Assembly (NCBI GenBank): GCA_028343215.1
Contig: JAOLYB010000002.1
Coordinates: 62,001 to 126,000 of the forward strand
Source: Candidatus Nitrosopelagicus sp.
GTDB lineage: Archaea; Thermoproteota; Nitrososphaeria; Nitrososphaerales; Nitrosopumilaceae
Direction of reading: 5' to 3'
Length of the DNA: 64,000 bases
The translations under genes were made by a program, and so were the position numbers. Positions 465-492 of this stretch are shown one piece after another. The notes under the pieces were generated by a model. That model saw nothing but the letters and a program-made list of their open reading frames with translations, did no database searches and was not told the origin of the DNA. Position 1 is the first letter of the stretch, and each line of letters opens with the position of its first letter.

Positions 465-492
465 GTTAACCTGTATAAAATCTATGGTTAAC
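465..492. promoter_or_regulatory. Candidate BirA-type biotin operator GTTAACC-N14-GGTTAAC
   Basis: Perfect inverted repeat gttaacc(465-471)...ggttaac(486-492) in the divergent bioB/bioA intergenic region, enclosing TATA-like tataaaat. Confidence 0.72.

Follow-up and report, generated by a model that had tools for sequence, protein, structure and literature searches.

A predicted BirA operator between divergent bioB and bioAD genes in the marine archaeon Candidatus Nitrosopelagicus

In Escherichia coli, the operator bioO lies between the divergent bioA and bioBFCD transcripts. Group II biotin protein ligases, represented by the BirA proteins of E. coli (1BIA), Staphylococcus aureus (3RIR) and Bacillus subtilis, share an N-terminal winged helix-turn-helix (HTH), a central ligase and a C-terminal domain. 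The consensus of the bacterial BirA box is TTGTAAACC-N14/15-GGTTTACAA (PMC545781, citing Rodionov, Mironov and Gelfand 2002), and half-sites of the form TTGTtAACC, from Geobacter, are among the accepted bacterial sites (PMC545781). Within the open-licence literature, our searches brought up no description of a thaumarchaeal BirA operator, nor of BirA at ribosomal genes. Here we describe a palindrome at positions 465–492 of a 64-kb stretch of Candidatus Nitrosopelagicus DNA (the whole stretch is referred to below as the window), which is very probably the operator of a bifunctional biotin ligase/repressor BirA and, as such, would add a new archaeal example to an established class of operators. 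The bioA gene of the window is 98% identical to those in named Nitrosopelagicus records. This reading is based on the presence of an HTH-bearing ligase in the same genome, the conservation of the site with bioB, the occurrence of canonical BirA boxes at the orthologous place in relatives and the lack of sites in lineages whose ligase has lost its HTH. As at bioO, a single BirA palindrome would lie between divergent bioA and bioB transcripts; unlike bioO, it is associated with predicted archaeal TATA/BRE promoters, bioD shares the transcript of bioA, and bioF is found downstream of bioB.

A conserved palindrome between bioB and bioAD

The sequence at 465–492, GTTAACCTGTATAAAATCTATGGTTAAC, is a perfect 7+7 inverted repeat, GTTAACC-N14-GGTTAAC, with half-sites at 465–471 and 486–492 and no assigned strand. 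Both this symmetry and the location between divergent bioB and bioAD had been proposed in the original prediction, and both held, the location once the flanking genes had been matched to protein families. The N-terminal part of bioB (biotin synthase; TIGR00433, E 4e-37) occupies positions 1–434 of the minus strand and runs past the edge of the window (matched stretch G000:C12:61457-62428). On the plus strand, bioA (523–1851; TIGR00508, above cut-off) is followed by the dethiobiotin synthase gene bioD (1848–2543; TIGR00347, above cut-off), with a 4-base overlap between the two genes.

Using a first-order Markov model, the exact pattern is expected 7.5e-5 times per 64-kb window and 0.0012 times per 1.06-Mb genome of such composition; it is found once in the 1.06-Mb Nitrosopelagicus genome, the assembly of which is 75% complete. 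Allowing three mismatches gave two matches in the window against 1.5 expected, which is not significant, and the weight therefore rests on the exactness and the conservation of the site at 465–492. Additional sites near bioY, bioF or acc genes, which had also been envisaged, were not found in this genome, and scanning it with spacers of 12–18 and one mismatch revealed no convincing further site. We give next to no credence to a chance repeat, or to a plain promoter element without a regulator. GTTAAC is self-complementary, AT-rich promoters yield such words and a lone GTTAACGAC is conserved in the promoter of the ribosomal-protein gene uL3 in many genera, all of which speak for such an origin; however, it is contradicted by the conservation of the site, and the minute expectation per genome and the restriction of all exact matches to two loci also speak against it. 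Moreover, GTWAACC-N14-GGTTWAC is present in 99 of 171 genomes of the family, whereas the reversed control pattern occurs in 12 of these 171 and the count beyond the family is 3 of 129 (counts read from a table).

As anticipated, the site is conserved in relatives. In an alignment of 22 divergent bioB–bioA loci, anchored on the half-sites, no locus failed and GTTAAC-N16-GTTAAC was kept in 22/22; the left half-site frequently has T for its second C, and mean column identity in the spacer was 63%. This motif occurred, once each, in 22 of the 31 genomes of the genus. A scan for bioB covered 22 members of the genus: the motif was present in all 16 genomes with bioB assembled and absent from all six without bioB, which are incomplete assemblies.

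Two nucleotides outside each half-site lies an octamer that we assign as the probable TATA box of the adjacent gene: TTATTTAG on the minus strand (455–462), 20 nt before the bioB ATG (434), and TTAATTAG on the plus strand (495–502), 20 nt before the ATG at 523. Both sides of the window thus share the layout GTTAAC-N2-TATA octamer-N20-ATG. In relatives, TTATTTA or TTAATTA is kept on the bioB side and TTAATTA, TTATTTA or TTATTA on the bioA side. The operator therefore probably sits between two divergent, leaderless promoters and, as these likely flank it symmetrically, a single BirA dimer could shut both. Translation of bioA probably starts, leaderless, at the ATG at 523 rather than at 514, since relatives lack the upstream ATG (ATA in L007, AAT in L011) and the downstream one has the same TATA-N20-ATG spacing as bioB.

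The original prediction had instead placed the bioA promoter within the operator, at TATAAAAT in the spacer (474–481, plus strand), so that BirA would act mainly by burying this TATA box. The element is present in the window and retained in the nearest relatives (L003–L007, L009 and L015), but it is missing from L008, L010, L011–L014 and L016–L021, in which the half-sites, and with them the operator and the genes, remain. It is thus unconserved, whereas the TATA-like octamers outside the half-sites are kept and lie at an equal distance of 20 nt from both start codons. The spacer promoter is probably wrong, and an operator working mainly by such burial appears improbable.

Regulation from between the two outer promoters would, by analogy with bacterial BirA, be triggered when biotin is plentiful and unbiotinylated carboxylase carrier domains are few. 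BirA charged with biotinyl-AMP would dimerise, and the two N-terminal winged helices of the dimer would bind the two GTTAACC half-sites. The bound dimer would cover the ground just upstream of both putative TATA boxes, where TFB/BRE contacts are expected to form, and bioB (leftward) and bioAD (rightward) would be repressed together.

The biotin ligase and its relation to the bacterial BirA box

The sole biotin ligase found in the genome (L002:1153-2154, minus strand, 333 aa) carries the N-terminal HTH that had been predicted for it (HTH_11, PF08279, E 5.8e-14), together with BPL_LplA_LipB and BPL_C domains. It aligns end to end with the BirA proteins of E. coli and S. aureus and has the three-part organisation of group II ligases, although its recognition-helix stretch, SRVAVWKHIKKI, differs from theirs. 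The gene directly upstream (L002:2154-2669) overlaps the start of birA by one base and encodes a product of 171 aa that matches winged-HTH families only weakly (TrmB/HTH_34, below cut-off).

The site shares its architecture, spacing, core AACC/GGTT and location at biotin genes with the bacterial BirA box. It differs in that the half-site is GTTAACC, not GTAAACC, which amounts to one departure (A to T) in each 7-bp core; the window also has GC and CA where the 9-bp half-site has its outer TT/AA, and the operator does not overlie a bacterial promoter but is flanked by two probable archaeal TATA boxes. The proposed match to the BirA-box architecture is nevertheless well founded, as intermediates within the family connect the GTTAACC form with the exact consensus. 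At the orthologous position before bioB, we found exact TTGTAAACC-N14-GGTTTACAA in L244 (G021) and L306 (G138), near-canonical boxes in genera g6, g8 and g9, and GTAAACC-N14/15-GGTTAAC hybrids in g3, g13, g18 and g22. A member of another family of the order (L307) has TGTAAACC-N14-GGTTTACA before an apparent bioB. G022 (g22) has two sites: the N15 hybrid box at bioB and, directly upstream of bioA (L281:1501-1528), a second BirA-like site, GTTAACC-N14-GGTTAAT.

Within the family, the boxes thereby form a natural gradation, with hybrids linking the canonical form to GTTAACC, and the recognition helix changes alongside from SRA to SRV. Nitrosopumilaceae with canonical GTAAACC boxes have the recognition-helix stretch SRAAVWK[HN]; SRA is found in the canonical-box genera, and SRV or SRT where GTTAACC half-sites occur. 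That the helix shifted along with the half-site is suggestive only, because the changes are clustered on the tree.

The HTH and the sites were also compared across lineages. No HTH_11 could be detected in the ligases of g5 (G004, G026), g7 (G006), g11 (G010) and g16 (G015, G049), and in that of G023 it fell below the cut-off. Neither bioB nor uL3 carries a site in g5, g7, g16 and G023, and uL3 has none in g11, where bioB falls at a contig end. Genera with an intact HTH carry at least one site, with the sole exception of g17 (G016; among L257, L241 and L258, which cover g15 and g17), where the HTH is intact and neither bioB nor uL3 has a recognisable site. A match in G016 (L270) was discarded as chance as it lies inside a coding gene, and those in L284 and L286 were discarded likewise. 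On the ligase tree, the HTH state changes four times and site presence three times, never in opposite directions; a tree-based test of the association pointed in the right direction, with three to four independent HTH losses being too few for significance.

A second site upstream of the uL3 ribosomal-protein operon

The exact site was present in 46 of 151 genomes of the family, and every exact match was situated either 49–99 bp before bioB or 75–78 bp before uL3; the match on G143:C14 lies at the end of a contig that shares the sequence of the bioB site in L074. The identity of uL3, which heads the main ribosomal-protein operon and is followed by uL4, uL23 and uS19, was confirmed. Sites at uL3 (for example, L112:5821-5848, L114:13386-13413 and L121:9182-9209) are confined to g4, g12 (Nitrosopumilus), g14, g15 (Nitrosarchaeum-type) and g19, which group together in the ligase tree as a single clade (SH-aLRT 96). 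In many genomes the uL3 site is 8–12 kb away from the bioB site. Spacing was N14 in all 39 distinct site-bearing uL3 promoters, in which the half-site columns were 96–99% conserved compared with 61% in the spacer. The distance from the site to the TATA box is nearly the same at the two loci, 14–15 nt at uL3 and 12–13 nt at bioB, the latter as measured in Nitrosopumilus-type genomes, where bioA is located elsewhere. Upstream of Nitrosopumilus bioA (L022–L080), which is often divergent from bioD, we found no BirA box; the intergenic region there has a conserved stretch of another kind, TTGATTAAT..ATCGGTTAATTATTAAG, which probably represents two facing promoters without one.

In the genus to which the window belongs, the site is present at bioB and absent from uL3: the uL3 promoter (L188) contains no palindrome, and a lone GTTAACGAC is found behind a TATATAAT box. 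In the genera without a palindrome at uL3 (L188, L189, L195, L211, L213 and others), the uL3 promoter has a strongly conserved TATATAATGGGGTTAACGAC and one GTTAACGAC between the TATA box and the start codon; this arrangement may have been the seed of the later operator half-site.

The reverse distribution is seen in g15, where the bioB site is gone and the uL3 site is present in 18/18 genomes, one of which has a single unrelated extra match. In five of these genomes the uL3 site is the only GTWAACC-N14-GGTTWAC, even with up to one mismatch, and no N15 site was detected in the eleven genomes scanned from g15, g17 and others, save chance-level matches in the larger G013. The BirA HTH is intact in g15 and in G013 (g14), both of which keep the uL3 site without a bioB site. 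Overall, the uL3 site was seen only in lineages with an intact HTH, but it maps to a single gain on the ligase tree. Were bioB the sole target of BirA, nothing should have kept the HTH from decaying, as it did in g5, g7 and g16; its persistence in g14 and g15 thus favours BirA acting at uL3, although the HTH may be retained there for ligase function instead. Judged from these genomic patterns, BirA control of uL3 is plausible but unproven.

The presence of the same site before a ribosomal-protein operon in one clade, and the independent gain and loss of the two sites (bioB only in g1, uL3 only in g15), could also mean that a different, growth-related regulator owns the palindrome at both loci and that BirA is not involved. 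This appears very improbable, given that, in the orthologous place, the bioB site passes by degrees into the exact bacterial BirA box and that loss of the ligase HTH coincides with loss of the sites; no other protein is needed. We lean slightly towards an extension of BirA control, in the Nitrosopumilus/Nitrosarchaeum clade, from biotin synthesis to the uL3 operon. The status of biotin and carboxylase, reflecting CO2 fixation by the biotin-dependent acetyl/propionyl-CoA carboxylase of these autotrophs, would then feed directly into ribosome production, and uL3 would be the sole remaining BirA target in the Nitrosarchaeum-type genus.

Marine ammonia-oxidising archaea, which count among the dark ocean's most abundant CO2 fixers, thus gain a concrete, predicted regulator–operator pair of a kind common to bacteria. 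The uL3 sites are more surprising than the result in the window and are the part worth pursuing: they hint that a vitamin sensor may help to set ribosome production and, if BirA does act on the Nitrosopumilus uL3 operon, the synthesis of ribosomes would be tied directly, at the level of transcription, to a cofactor of carbon fixation.
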